From the NCBI RefSeq assembly GCF_016888005.1, contig NZ_JAFDVE010000016.1, positions 1 to 64,000 of the forward strand: 64,000 nt of DNA, written 5' to 3'. The position numbers and the translations under genes are program-made. Shown here in pieces: positions 28,032 through 32,686 of this stretch; position 1 is the stretch's first letter; each line of letters opens with the position of its first letter. The stretch is from Phycicoccus sp. CSK15P-2. Lineage in GTDB: Bacteria; Actinomycetota; Actinomycetes; Actinomycetales; Dermatophilaceae. The notes under the pieces are model-generated. The model made no database searches. It saw only the letters and a program-made list of their open reading frames with translations, and was not told where the DNA came from.

Positions 28032-29396
28032 TCACCAGGGCAGCTCGACCGACAGGTCGCGGGGGTCGTCGGCCACGACCCAGCCCCCGTCGACATCCCG
28101 GGTGTACTCCACCCCGGGCCCCGTCGTGGCGAGTGCTCGGACGGCCGCGAGAAGGCGCTCCACGTGCTCCGGGGTCGTCGCCAGACCCGCGCTGACCCGC
28201 ACGGCGGTCGTGTGCTCGGGGGTGCTCGCGAGCAGTGCGTCGACGAGCAGGTGCGCACAGAACTTCCCGGCGCGGACCCCGATGCCGTACTCCGCCGACA
28301 GCGCCGCGGCGACGAGGTGGGCGTCGAGACCGTCGACCGTGAAGGCGACGACGGGGCCGCGGTCGGTGTCCGGCCCGAAGATCGACGACGTCCGCACACC
28401 GGGAATGTCCCGCAGCCCGTCCGACAGCCGTTCGGTGAGCACGTGCTCGTGCTGCTCGACGGCGGTCCGGTGCTCGCGCACCGCGGCGCAGGCGGCGGCC
28501 AGGGCCACGGCACCGAGCACGTTGGGGCTACCGCCCTCGTGCCGTGCCGGGCCCGTCGACCAGCGGATCGCATCCCGGGTGACCTCCGCGCTGGCCCCGC
28601 CGCCTGCGAGGTAGGGGTCGGCGGCGTCGAGCCAGTCCCGGCGACCCACGAGCGCTCCGGCGCCATAGGGCGCGTAGAGCTTGTGACCGGAGAAGGCGAC
28701 CCAGTCGGCACCGAGGGAGCCGAGGTCGACCGGCCGGTGGGCGACGAGCTGGGCGGCGTCGACGAGCACCCGCGCTCCGTGTCGCTGCGCGGTGCGGACC
28801 ACCTGGTCGAGCGGCCAGAGCTCACCGGTGACGTTGGACGCGCCCGCGACGACGACGAGCGGTGTCGGACCGTCCTCCAGGGCGGACAGCCGGGCGTCGA
28901 GCGCGGTCAGCGCCGACGCGACCCCCGCAGCGGGGACCGGGAGCCGGTGGACGTCCTCCGGCTGCCACGGGAGCAGCGACGCGTGGTGCTCGGACTCGAA
29001 CACGACCACCGGCGTCCCCGTGGGCAGCGCGCGGGCGAGGAGGGTCACCGCGTCGGTCGTGTTCCGGGTGAGGACGACGACGTCGTCCCGGCGGGCACCG
29101 ACGAACCGGGCGACCTCCTCCCGGGCCGCCTCGTAGTGGGCGCTGGTCACCCGGGAGAGCCAGCCCTGACCGCGGTGCACCGAGGAGTACGTCCGCACGG
29201 CCGTGTCGACGGCACGCACGACAGACTCCAGAGCCGGCGTGGAGGCCCCGTGGTCGAGGGCGGCGTAGTCGACCCAGGTGCCGTGGACGGTGGGCACCGG
29301 GCCGGGCCGCACGACGGCGGGGACCGGGACGTCGGGGGTGGTCAGCCGGTGGGCGAGGTGCAGGGCGGACTCGTCGACAGGTCGGATGCTGGACAT
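28032..29396 (-). CDS. Class V aminotransferase, cysteine desulfurase/selenocysteine lyase-like, under a SAM-IV riboswitch
   Basis: A protein of 454 residues. Fold type I PLP enzyme: substrate loop YAALDHGASTPAL, NTTDAVTLLARAL, ESEHHASLLPW (His stacking on PLP), VDAAQLVAHRPVDL and the PLP lysine in FSGHKLYAPYGAGALVG. The C-terminal GIGVRAGKFCAHLLVD has a cysteine where SufS-type desulfurases carry the catalytic one. The ATG at 29396 follows GAGGAGCC; the frame is open upstream but crosses the riboswitch. It has no suf/isc neighbours, and control by S-adenosylmethionine suggests a role in sulfur amino-acid metabolism, such as releasing sulfide from cysteine, rather than Fe-S cluster assembly. 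The reaction is inferred from family only. Confidence 0.9.
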   Translation of the reverse strand: MSSIRPVDESALHLAHRLTTPDVPVPAVVRPGPVPTVHGTWVDYAALDHGASTPALESVVRAVDTAVRTYSSVHRGQGWLSRVTSAHYEAAREEVARFVGARRDDVVVLTRNTTDAVTLLARALPTGTPVVVFESEHHASLLPWQPEDVHRLPVPAAGVASALTALDARLSALEDGPTPLVVVAGASNVTGELWPLDQVVRTAQRHGARVLVDAAQLVAHRPVDLGSLGADWVAFSGHKLYAPYGAGALVGRRDWLDAADPYLAGGGASAEVTRDAIRWSTGPARHEGGSPNVLGAVALAAACAAVREHRTAVEQHEHVLTERLSDGLRDIPGVRTSSIFGPDTDRGPVVAFTVDGLDAHLVAAALSAEYGIGVRAGKFCAHLLVDALLASTPEHTTAVRVSAGLATTPEHVERLLAAVRALATTGPGVEYTRDVDGGWVVADDPRDLSVELPW

Positions 29397-29401
29397 CGAG
29401 G

Positions 29402-29437
29402 CTCCTCGAGGGCCGAAGGACCCTCGGCCGCACCGGG
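29402..29437 (-). promoter_or_regulatory. Expression platform: alternative hairpins next to the ribosome-binding site
   Basis: Between the riboswitch and the ATG, CGAGGG (29426-29421) can pair with CCCTCG (29412-29407), whose last base is the first of the GAGGAG ribosome-binding site (29407-29402). A competing hairpin GGCCGA/TCGGCC shares bases with it. The two structures exclude each other, suggesting control of translation initiation. Confidence 0.45.
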
Positions 29438-29551
29438 ATCCCGCGCTTGCCGACGCCACCTCGGCGCCGACCAGGTCGTCACCCGGAGCACCCCACCGCG
29501 GAGGAGGGTTGCCGGCCAGCGAGCCGGGGCTTGGCGCTGGCACTCATGACC
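29438..29551 (-). promoter_or_regulatory. SAM-IV riboswitch
   Basis: Read on the minus strand, the segment has the successive conserved blocks of the SAM-IV class as I know them. These are GGTCATGAGTGCCAGCG, CAAGCCCCGGCTCGCTGG, CCGGCAACCCTCC, GCGGTGGGGTGC, CCGGGTGACGACC and the pseudoknot-side end GGCAAGCGCGGGATC. The P1 strands GGTC/GACC pair. The element binds S-adenosylmethionine; it lies about 40 bases upstream of the aminotransferase start. SAM-IV elements occur mainly in Actinobacteria upstream of sulfur-metabolism genes. A covariance-model search would settle the call. Confidence 0.9.
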
Positions 29552-29641: not shown

Positions 29642-32548
29642 TCAGGCCGGGACGACGTTGACGAGCCCGGGCGCCCGCACGATGACGGTGCGCACTCCCC
29701 CGGCCGTCGCCTCCTGCACCTTGGGACGGGCCAGCGCCAGCTCGCGCAGCGCGTCCTCGGCGATGTCGCTCGGGACCTCGATGCGGTCGCGGACCTTGCC
29801 CTTGATCTGGACGACACAGGTGACCGTGTCGTCGACGAGCAGGCCGGGGTCGGCCACCGGGAAGGGCTGGTACACGAGCGAGCGGTCGTGCCCGAGACGG
29901 GCCCAGAGCTCCTCGGCGATGTGCGGCGCGAGCGGCGCGACCATGAGGACGAGCGCCTCGGCCGCCTCGCGGGGCACACCGCCCTCGAGCTTGGTCAGCG
30001 CGTTGTTGAGCTCGGTGAGCCGCGCGATGGCGGTGTTGAACCCGAGCGAGCCGAAGTCGGTGCGGACGGCGTCGACCGTGCGGTGCAGCACCCGGGTCGT
30101 GGCGTCGTCGAGCGGGGTGTCGACGACGCGCAGGGCGCCGGTCTCCTCGTCGACGACGTTGCGCCACAGCCGCTGGAGGAAGCGCTGGCTGCCGACGACG
30201 GCACGGGTGTCCCACGGCTTGCTCTGCTCGAGCGGGCCGAGACCCATCTCGTAGAGCCGGAAGGTGTCGGCGCCGAACGCCGCGTACATGTCGTCCGGGC
30301 TGACCATGTTCTTCAGCGACTTGCCGATCTTCCCGAACTCACGCGAGACCGGGGCACCGCCGTGGGTGAAGGTCTGCCGGCCGTCGTCGTCGACGTGCTC
30401 CTCGACCTCACCGGCCTCGACGTACTGGCCGCGGGCGTCGGTGTAGGCGGGGGCCTGGATGTAGCCCTGGGCGAAGTACGTGCGGAACGGCTCGCCCGAG
30501 GCGAGGTGCCCGAGGTCGTGCAGCACCTTGTGCCAGAACCGGGCGTAGAGCAGGTGCAGCACGGCGTGCTCGACGCCACCGACGTAGAGGTCGACGCCAC
30601 CCGGGTCGCGGGTCCCGGCCGGCGCGCCGGCGACCGGCTCGGGGCGCGGGCCCATCCAGTAGGCCTCGTTCTCGGGGTCGACGAGCGCGGCGTCGTTCGC
30701 CGGGTCGAGGTAGCGCAGGTAGTACCAGCAGGAGCCGGCCCACTGCGGCATGACGTTGGTGTCCCGGCGGAAGGTGCGCGGGCCCCGGCCGTCACCGAGG
30801 TCGAGCTCGACGGTGACCCACTCGTGGTCGCGGGCGAGCGGCGGTTCCGGCTCGCTGTGGGCGTCCTGCGGGTCGTAGACCTTCGGGCTGTAGTCGGGGA
30901 CGTCCGGCAGCTCGACGGGCAGCTGGTCCTCGGGCACTCCGTGGGCGATGCCGTCCTCGTCGAAGACGACGGGGAAGGGCTCGCCCCAGTAGCGCTGGCG
31001 GGCGAAGAGCCAGTCGCGCAGCTTGTACGTGACGGCACCCTCGCCGAGGCCCTCGGCCTCCAGCCAGCCGATGATCCGCTCCTTGGCCTCGGCGACGCCG
31101 AGGCCGTCGAGGCTCACCTCGTCGTTGGCGGAGTTCATCGCCGGGCCGTCGCCGGTGTAGGCCGTGGACTCGTCGTGGCCCTCGGGGGGTCGCACGGTGC
31201 GGACGACGGGCAGGGCGTAGGCGGCCGCGAAGTCCCAGTCGCGCTCGTCCTGGGCCGGCACGGCCATGATCGCCCCGGTGCCGTAGCCCATGAGGACGTA
31301 GTCGGCGACGAACACCGGCACCCGGGCTCCGTTCACCGGGTTGACGGCCCATCCGCCCGTGAAGACACCGGTCTTGGCCTTGCCCTCGTCCTGGCGCTCG
31401 GCGTCGGTCTTGGCCGCGGCGGCGGCCCGGTAGCCGGCGACCGCCTCGGCCGGGGTGGCCGCACCGCCGGTCCAGGCGTCCTTGGTGCCCTCGGGCCAGC
31501 CGCCCTCGGGCACGAGGGTCTCGACGAGCGGGTGCTCGGGGGCGAGCACCATGAAGGTGGCGCCGAACAGCGTGTCCGGGCGGGTGGTGAAGACCTCGAT
31601 GCCGGCGCCTTCGCCGGCATCGACGGCGAACGTCACCCGGGCGCCCTGGCTGCGCCCGATCCAGTTGCGCTGCATCGTCTTGACCTTCTCGGGCCACTCG
31701 ACGCGGTCGAGGTCGTCGGCGAGACGGTCGGCGTACTCGGTGATCCGCATGACCCACTGGCGCAGGTTGCGCTTGAAGACCGGGTAGTTGCCGCGGTCGG
31801 AGCGGCCCTCGTTCGTGACCTCCTCGTTGGCCAGCACGGTGCCGAGGCCGGGACACCAGTTGACCTCGGCCTCGACCGACTGCACGAGCCGGCGGGCGTC
31901 GAGCAGCGCGGCCCGCTCGGTGTGGGAGAGGTCGTCCCAGGCGCGGCCGTCGGGCGTGGGCCGGGCGCCGCCGCGGTACTCCTCGACGAGCTCGGCGATG
32001 GGGCGGGCCCGGCCGGTGCCGCCGTCCGCGCGCTCGGCCTCCGGGTCGTACCAGGAGTCGAAGATCTGGAGGAAGATCCACTGCGTCCAGCGGTAGTAGT
32101 CGGGGTCGATGGTGCGGATGGCGCGGCGGTCGTCGTGGCCGAGGCCGAGGCGGCGCAGCTGGCGCGCCATGATCGTGATGTTCTCCTCGGTGGTCTTGCG
32201 CGGGTGCTGTCCGGTCTGCACGGCGTACTGCTCGGCGGGCAGGCCGAAGGCGTCGTAGCCGAGGCAGTGCAGGACGTTGCGGCCGAGCATCCGGTTGTAC
32301 CGGGCGTAGACGTCGGTGGCGATGTAGCCGAGGGGGTGCCCGACGTGCAGGCCCGCACCACTCGGGTACGGGAACATGTCGAGGACGAGCAGGTGGCCCC
32401 CCGGGTGCTCGGCGACGCCGGCGGGGTCGGCCCACGGGCCGGCCGGGTTGGGGGCGCGGAAGGTGCCCTGCTCCTCCCAGCGGTCCTGCCACGCGACCTC
32501 GATCTGTCCGGCCAGCTCGGCGGTGTAGCGGTACGGGGTCTCGCTCAT
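29642..32548 (-). CDS. leuS: Leucyl-tRNA synthetase
   Basis: A protein of 968 residues, a class I synthetase charging tRNA-Leu. The HIGH-type motif is HVGHPLGY (in [16 protein letters not shown]), the editing domain (CP1) lies about 230-430 ([34 protein letters not shown]) and the KMSKS-type motif is [14 protein letters not shown]. The C-terminus holds the anticodon-binding helices and a short tail domain ending in VNVVPA. The ATG at 32548 (GAGGACG upstream) gives [14 protein letters not shown]; an in-frame ATG at 32593 lies within the attenuator's T run and is rejected. Expression is predicted to depend on leucine-tRNA charging through the leader upstream. Alone in its transcription unit. 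Confidence 0.97.
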
Positions 32549-32594
32549 CTCGTCCTCGTCGGTTCGTCTCGGTGTCGGGTGTCCCGCAGCCATG

Positions 32595-32619
32595 AAAAAA
32601 CCCCTCGCACAGGAGGGGT
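32595..32619 (-). terminator. Intrinsic terminator (attenuator) in the leuS leader
   Basis: On the minus strand ACCCCTC (32619-32613), six-base loop CTGTGC, GAGGGGT (32606-32600) followed by an uninterrupted run of T (32600-32595). A true Rho-independent terminator with U tract, unusual in this window, located between the leader peptide and leuS. Confidence 0.9.
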
Positions 32620-32620
32620 C

Positions 32621-32648
32621 GCCGCGCGGGCCGTGGGGCCGGCGCGGC
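32621..32648 (-). promoter_or_regulatory. Leader hairpin between leader peptide and terminator
   Basis: GCCGCGCCGGCC and GGCCCGCGCGGC pair at 11 of 12 positions around a four-base loop. The 5' arm starts at the last base of the leader stop codon. GGCCCC inside it could alternatively pair with GGGGUU of the terminator (two G-U pairs), a possible antiterminator. Confidence 0.6.
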
Positions 32649-32674
32649 TAGGGAAGAAGCAGGAACCTCGCCAC
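32648..32674 (-). CDS. leuS leader peptide (Leu-Leu-Leu), leaderless
   Basis: GTG GCG AGG TTC CTG CTT CTT CCC TAG encodes (M/V)ARFLLLP. Three leucine codons in a row, two of them CTT, which is rare in DNA of this GC content, are followed by proline and stop. A -10 box (TACCCT, 32686-32681) lies six bases before the GTG, so the transcript probably begins at the start codon. Slow translation at the Leu codons when charged tRNA-Leu is scarce would disturb the following hairpin (32621-32648) and prevent the terminator at 32595-32619, allowing leuS transcription. This is the layout of ribosome-mediated attenuation; its operation here is inferred. Confidence 0.82.
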   Translation of the reverse strand: MARFLLLP

Positions 32675-32680
32675 GGGCTC

Positions 32681-32686
32681 AGGGTA
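32681..32686 (-). promoter_or_regulatory. -10 box of the leuS leader transcript
   Basis: TACCCT on the minus strand, six bases before the leader GTG. No good -35 was found about 17 bases further upstream. Confidence 0.55.

Follow-up and report, generated by a model that had tools for sequence, protein, structure and literature searches.

Leucine leader upstream of leuS

The stretch of DNA analysed here, referred to as the window, spans 64,000 nucleotides and carries leuS on its minus strand. Ahead of the gene lie a -10 element, a short ORF with successive Leu codons, a GC-rich hairpin and an intrinsic terminator, which read as follows in the direction of transcription:

32681..32686, minus strand: -10 element TACCCT, with the start codon of the leader six bases on
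32648..32674, minus strand: leader ORF GTG GCG AGG TTC CTG CTT CTT CCC TAG, nine codons, peptide M-A-R-F-L-L-L-P, read from the sequence
32654..32662, minus strand: regulatory Leu codons CTG CTT CTT, read from the sequence; the final CTT recurs in 121 of 123 copies
32642..32648, minus strand: hairpin 5' arm GCCGCGC, its first base the G of TAG, 5 nt past the last Leu codon
32621..32627, minus strand: hairpin 3' arm GCGCGGC, adjoining the terminator
32595..32620, minus strand: intrinsic terminator GACCCCTC-CTGTGC-GAGGGGTT, with the stem-loop at 32620-32599 and six T at 32600-32595
32553..32557, minus strand: GAGGA, the likely Shine-Dalgarno sequence of leuS, read from the sequence
29642..32548, minus strand: leuS, leucine--tRNA ligase, 968 aa, ATG at 32548; TIGR00396, 840 bits against a cut-off of 548

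A sequence-only reading of this locus had placed a Leu-codon leader before leuS, with a GC-rich hairpin whose 5' arm lies on the stop codon and a terminator ending in six T. The letters bear out each of these features, and the family match identifies the gene as leuS. An alternative leuS start, the ATG at window position 32593 just past the T run (983-aa frame), was rejected, as its frame is not conserved in relatives.

The leader RNA is more stable than its shuffles (z = -3.3; 2 of 200 shuffles equally stable), and its centroid fold consists of both hairpins plus one weak hairpin within the leader. Three terminator-like sites were found in 601 bases, against a mean of 0.1 in shuffles, and two of the three are the terminator of the leuS leader. 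By a strict rule that requires both hexamers, no sigma-70 promoter was found in the same 601 bases, and the -10 element of the window leader therefore rests on its conservation. The gap between this element and the start codon is 6 nt in 97, 7 nt in 25 and 8 nt in one of the 123 copies described below, in a search that allowed 5-8; this spacing agrees with the leaderless geometry proposed earlier. The window leader is probably translated from a leaderless transcript.

At gathering score, the only Rfam matches in the whole window are SAM-IV and tRNA. No T-box or other Rfam family was found at the element, either at gathering score or, over 501 bases, with permissive filters. At five further leuS loci the only matches were two to tRNA, and at six other leader loci there were none. 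The SAM-IV riboswitch (29438-29551, minus strand, 109.8 bits) lies at the 5' end of frame 28032-29543, downstream of leuS. This frame is a cysteine-desulfurase-like gene, whose best NCBIfam match, TIGR01979, falls below its cut-off.

Distribution in Actinomycetota

Upstream of leuS, 123 copies of the leader were collected in 32 partly overlapping groups, which are numbered families split by LeuS type together with named genera (f35, for example, overlaps with Streptomyces). The search demanded a -10 element, a Leu codon, a helix at +5 with 6 or more pairs, a gap of 5-8 and a terminator 0-5 nt past the helix, with shorter spacing scoring better, so that these features are conditioned in the 123 copies; the structure-free test is the set of 78 leader-only positives described next. 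Two of 125 rows were dropped, L179 for a spurious helix and L258 as the same site as L035. Twelve further copies complete the set, and 13 of 30 loci from an 18-base motif search joined the sample.

The leader-only detector (TANNNT, 5-8 nt, then a short ORF with two successive Leu codons) was positive in 78 of 177 leuS upstream regions, and the full element is present in 72 of these 78. A structural detector found the leader in 37 of 80 named genomes. All 12 sampled genomes of the window's genus, its own included, carry the element, as do 27 of the 31 sampled from its own family (26 by the leader-only detector plus L035), with no leader in the other 4. The leader of L035 has a single Leu codon (MASQQQRLIGPR, CTT) and retains both register and hairpin.

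By the leader-only detector, three families carry the leader throughout: f35 (10/10), judged by its leader to be Streptomyces, f36 (10/10) and f12 (8/8). Others are mixed, f3 (1/9) and f44 (3/5) among them. The same detector found no leader among nine regions in each of f4, f7, f8, f9 and f22, nor in f20 (0/7), long-type f34 (0/8) or f31 (0/5).

A scan for the whole architecture covered the window, 20 leuS neighbourhoods and 80 named leuS loci (1,646,692 bases, both strands). It returned 54 sites, 53 before leuS (51 assigned by script; L296 and L299 assigned by hand as leuS leaders) and one elsewhere (L200). Block-shuffled control regions gave 0 positives in 77, with a detector strict enough to miss f5, f44 and Pseudonocardiaceae (6 named loci, recovered by less stringent inspection). 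The occurrence of the full architecture before leuS exceeds chance.

We also built a covariance model, R1, from 30 leuS-leader copies, the window copy among them and none from f35 or Streptomyces. At E 0.01 it matches 88 of 138 class genomes, not all of the matches lying at leuS, and at E 0.001 it matches 19 of 296 phylum genomes. When the 61 class matches at E <= 1e-9 were paired with leuS positions by eye, 56 lay before leuS, 3 at contig ends and 1 before cimA, the remaining one being without an assigned gene. Two phylum matches from other classes also precede leuS, L376 by NCBIfam and L378 as read by eye. R1 scores ten f35 copies at 68.8-74.8 bits; the window copy scores 83.1, as one of the sequences from which the model was built. 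The 18-base leader motif occurs 53 times in 51 of 197 genomes, and its reversed pattern 11 times among the matches listed.

A fixed codon at a fixed distance

The last regulatory Leu codon is CTT in all but two of the 123 copies and in 30 of the 32 groups. The same codon accounts for 160 of 4,642 Leu codons (3.4%) in the LeuS genes of the named loci, with or without a leader, and for none of the 77 Leu codons in the window's leuS. CTT is fixed at one position only; neighbouring codons are variable, and those after it vary too. The sequence-only reading had named drifting Leu codons and stop beside a conserved hairpin as a finding that would count against it. The last Leu codon proved to be among the most constant features of the element, and it is the stop that drifts: TAG occupies the window's stop position in 27 of 123 leaders, and most others read through, typically ending at TGA three codons on.

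In the window genome the tRNA-Leu anticodons are GAG, CAG, TAG, CAA and TAA (42 of 48 tRNA matches examined). Since CTC and CTT share the GAG tRNA, the tRNA set alone does not explain the preference for a U-ending codon; slower wobble reading or avoidance of structure would be our guesses.

No structure had been demanded of the 78 leader-only positives, and in 86% of them the stretch beginning +5 past the last Leu codon finds a complementary 7-nt segment downstream. The same register test gives 31% at +4 and at most 9% at every offset from -12 to +3. Hairpin and terminator lie 0-3 nt apart in every one of the 123 copies, in a search that permitted 0-5 and gave preference to short spacing, and the hairpin loop, at 5-108 nt, is not conserved in length.

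The hairpin arms covary, bearing out the conservation and compensatory change that the earlier reading had looked to relatives for. Of the 17 pairs in the two stems, 12 show changes on both sides in a 30-sequence alignment, none of 500 shuffles reaches any of five covariation measures, and 93.9% of cells are paired, against 41-54% when the arms are slid. One C-G pair of the hairpin is U-A in 10 copies from 8 groups, a compensated change that turns the peptide's last Arg codon, CGC, into the Cys codon TGC in nine of the ten; in the tenth, from Glycomyces, it lies beyond the stop. At the level of sequence, RNA pairing is preserved here while the leader peptide changes.

With CUU in the A site, counting from the first base of the P codon puts position +5 at nucleotide 12. 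According to excerpts of a published study (PMC7282821), the bacterial mRNA channel holds 11 nt, and a stem-loop 11-12 nt away from the P codon interferes with binding at the A site; by analogy, the leader hairpin itself might slow CUU decoding. When the copies were folded with an 11-nt channel and a ribosome placed on the last Leu codon, the hairpin had a probability above 0.5 in all 123; with the ribosome moved to the stop, it passed that value in none. If the footprint is widened to 15 nt, the hairpin mostly fails to form even at the last Leu codon (mean P 0.31).

Hairpin and terminator coexist

The terminator has a probability above 0.5 in at least 117 of 123 copies in every ribosome state, and the two hairpins coexist at equilibrium, also in free RNA. 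We compared six alternative pairings with shuffles in 107 representatives, and none is enriched overall. The antiterminator put forward in the sequence-only reading, between GGCCCC of the hairpin loop and GGGGUU of the terminator, did not survive this comparison, the complementarity of loop and terminator 3' arm being no greater than that of shuffled loops (mean p 0.59; p < 0.05 in 3.7%). Mean p is 0.76 for the loop with the terminator 5' arm, 0.38 for the leader with the 3' arm, 0.74 for the leader with the 5' arm and 0.61 for the leader with the hairpin 3' arm. The rejection is weakest for the hairpin 3' arm with the terminator loop (mean p 0.32; p < 0.05 in 13.1%), a pairing that may form in f35 and f36, with family means of 0.06 and 0.08.

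These results bear on a classical attenuator, in which the hairpin loop or a leader segment would pair with the terminator 3' arm. Such a scheme has been proposed for Corynebacterium ilvB-II, with the P1 loop pairing with the terminator as antiterminator (PMC10272879, in part), and the window does offer a 6-bp match of hairpin loop and terminator 3' arm. However, the 107 representatives show no overall pairing excess over shuffles and the loop length is free to vary, which makes this scheme improbable for leuS. Because hairpin and terminator coexist and no alternative pairing is enriched overall, the mutual exclusion that defines a classical attenuator is absent; the element, as modelled, is attenuator-like by anatomy and has no shared-base antiterminator of the trp type. 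For the same reason, we suspect that the abutting hairpin hinders the terminator by position or kinetics.

Coexistence in free RNA would suit a response of the opposite sign, with the hairpin aiding the terminator and a stalled ribosome lowering leuS expression. The cell would then make less synthetase just when charged tRNA is short, and a reporter of the related ilvB-II leader is high in minimal and low in rich medium, as given in the consulted part of PMC10272879. We regard this sign as very improbable.

Many of the terminators have a CUGYGY-like loop, as expected if the first hairpin were a pause hairpin, at which RNA polymerase would wait within the terminator loop for the leading ribosome to arrive and melt the hairpin. 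Such pausing is known from the trp and his leaders. In 72 of 123 copies a Y-G step is found 10 nt past the helix base, in 64 at 12 nt and in 65 at 14 nt (raw counts), and the abutment would fix the distance from helix to Y-G. The loop motif is nevertheless absent in several groups (f14 and others), and pausing alone does not account for an on/off choice, so that we consider a pause hairpin unlikely; hindrance of the terminator by the abutting hairpin is the reading that we carry forward.

Two LeuS clades behind one leader

In short-type LeuS regions the leader-only detector found the leader in 8 of the 23 that were fetched, which are part of all short-type LeuS matches, and the structural search added a ninth, L176. 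Short-type and long-type LeuS form separate parts of the tree (100/100), with the included LeuS of Bacteroidota, Cyanobacteriota and Planctomycetota on the long side. Across 21 neighbourhoods, both LeuS types share downstream degV, comEA-like and comEC-like genes, with an upstream GGDEF gene in some (10 proteins checked by Pfam). The loci compared, with the two LeuS clades in shared neighbourhoods and the same kind of leader, are L290, L297 and L299-L302 on one side and L289, L291, L292, L294 and L295 on the other.

Because the same leader precedes two separate LeuS clades in a shared neighbourhood, it probably outlived a replacement of leuS. Replacement in place, with the leader kept, would fit these sequences best; separate capture of the leader by the two clades is a possible alternative. 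That two distant LeuS clades stand behind one leader hints that control sequences can be longer-lived than the genes under them.

Related leaders before branched-chain amino acid genes

R1, built from leuS leaders only, also matches, more weakly, before cimA, ilvA-like, ilvB and leuA genes. The codons fit the pathway, with Ile at cimA and the ilvA-like genes, Leu at leuA, and Leu, Val or Ile at ilvB. The Ile leaders, all from other actinobacteria, are:

Before cimA: L358-L361, L363, L364, L366-L368, L370, L374, L379, L380, L384-L387, L392, L393
Before ilvA-like (threonine-ammonia-lyase-like) genes: L388, L389

Seven of the eight cimA frames compared with NCBIfam score above the TIGR00977 cut-off, the eighth (L367) having been taken in a wrong frame, and the others were read by eye. 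Both ilvA-like frames are closest to threonine ammonia-lyase models, below the cut-offs of these. The leuA leaders touched weakly by R1 are L390, L391 and L395, the gene of L390 being checked by family search. The same kind of Ile leader stands before a 117-aa frame at L373, which has no NCBIfam match at 1e-20. Another Ile leader, L398, lies in the window's own genome (contig C6, upstream of 114530-114721, minus strand) and reads ATC ATT ATC, with hairpin and terminator and the helix at +5; the gene behind it is citramalate-synthase-like. We found no published cimA leader, by title, among the matches listed. The Ile leaders before cimA and ilvA-like genes are concrete further targets.

At these genes the helix offset from the last regulatory codon was taken for the helix tied to the terminator. 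At cimA (n = 19) it is +5 in 10, +6 in 5, +4 in 2, +3 in 1 and +7 in 1; it is +5 in both ilvA-like leaders and +5 and +6 at leuA. Among nine ilvB leaders (L383 left out) it is +5 in 3, +6 in 1 and +2 in 1, and 4 have no assignable offset. Given this spread at cimA, leuA and ilvB, the spacing rule is looser outside leuS. Leaderless transcription is also less certain at cimA, because many of its leaders have CANNNT or an indistinct sequence at -10.

The U-ending codon recurs in the Ile leaders: of the 45 Ile codons in the leaders of cimA and ilvA-like genes, 26 are ATT, compared with 4 of the 214 in 14 cimA frames (L373 left out). Such recurrence would be expected if U-ending codons merely kept the leader unstructured in a GC-rich genome and were no sensor, the peptide or its translation having another role. 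Yet at leuS CTT is fixed at a single position whose neighbours vary, and from gene to gene the amino acid encoded is the one that the pathway yields; we therefore give this explanation little credence.

Proposed mechanism

The leuS leader is likely, in our view, to control leuS by ribosome-mediated transcription attenuation, with charged tRNA-Leu as the signal that it senses. The leader, codon, register, hairpin, terminator and abutment are established by sequence comparison; from them we infer stalling, the direction of the response and antitermination by proximity. Transcription would start at or beside the GTG, as RNA-seq places it for the S. lividans relative, and a 70S ribosome would begin on the 5' end. 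When Leu-tRNA is short, the ribosome would halt with CUU in the A site. The hairpin, whose first base is nucleotide 12 from the P codon and thus lies immediately beyond the mRNA channel, would then stay folded; since it abuts the terminator, the intact hairpin would keep the latter from working, so that leuS would be transcribed. When Leu-tRNA is plentiful, the ribosome would reach the stop and melt the hairpin, upon which the terminator would act and transcription would end. Speaking for this reading are the conservation of the leader, its register, the covariation, the CTT codon, the toggling of the hairpin with an 11-nt channel and the match of leader codons to products; speaking against it are the coexistence of hairpin and terminator, the weakening of the hairpin at a 15-nt footprint, the published findings on ilvB and leuA of S. 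coelicolor and the many lineages without a leader. Put briefly, the element is a real, conserved leuS leader that most likely senses Leu-tRNA, of a kind already published in Streptomyces, and it probably switches leuS on when leucine runs short.

A broader proposal is more tentative, and we would put it at somewhat less than an even chance. Actinomycetota may share one old design, in which a leaderless leader places a U-ending codon one mRNA-channel length before an abutting, non-overlapping hairpin that blocks the terminator by position. By exchange of codons this design would serve leuS, cimA, ilvA, leuA and ilvB, and at leuS it would have outlived replacement of the synthetase. If true, leaders that sense amino acids could be predicted throughout Actinomycetota from the ruler (codon, 5 nt, helix, 0-3 nt, terminator), which would also provide a case in which antitermination without alternative base pairing can be tested.

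Comparison with known systems

The leuS leader shares with trp-type attenuators a short ORF with cognate codons that match the product and a terminator before the gene; it differs from them in that their antiterminator excludes the terminator by shared bases. The T-box, as at ileS of Actinobacteria, likewise places a synthetase gene under the control of tRNA charging, but it has no Rfam match in the window. T-boxes sense uncharged tRNA directly.

The LEU element of leuA is also a Leu-codon leader of Actinobacteria, described in the consulted part of PMC1262725 as a pseudoknot without an obvious terminator, whereas the window element stands at leuS and has a terminator. The same source reports that mutation of the candidate codons in the S. 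coelicolor ilvB leader had no effect and that leuA did not show the behaviour of a classical attenuator (PMC1262725). The ilvB-II leader and other actinobacterial ilvB leaders resemble the leuS leader in having an ORF with branched-chain codons, a first stem and then a terminator; ilvB-II differs in gene and codons, and its antiterminator between P1 loop and terminator finds no support at leuS.

Whether a leuS leader of this kind had been described was a question left by the sequence-only reading, and for Streptomyces the answer is yes. Classical attenuators before leuS were predicted in S. avermitilis and S. coelicolor in 2005 (PMC1262725), and in 2021 leuL2 of S. lividans was reported as a leucine leader, MRAVRLLLSEPR, before leuS, leaderless by RNA-seq and followed by a hairpin and a U run (PMC8079986). 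Judged by titles and abstract openings, we found no further published leuS leader, nor one in the consulted part of PMC9413887. The 2005 prediction, as far as the excerpt goes, names an antiterminator for Streptomyces leuS (PMC1262725), whereas our comparison of leuS leaders found no overlapping antiterminator. The Streptomyces copies have GAG, GGG or CGG where the window's genus has TAG, and the window peptide ends three codons earlier with the helix intact. In other respects the two agree: f35 and the named Streptomyces have the same gene, a Leu leader, a hairpin and U run directly before leuS, and the same register and helix. To this published kind of leader, the present comparison adds its extent in many other actinobacteria, the ruler, the finding that it precedes two LeuS clades, and the relationship to the Ile leaders.
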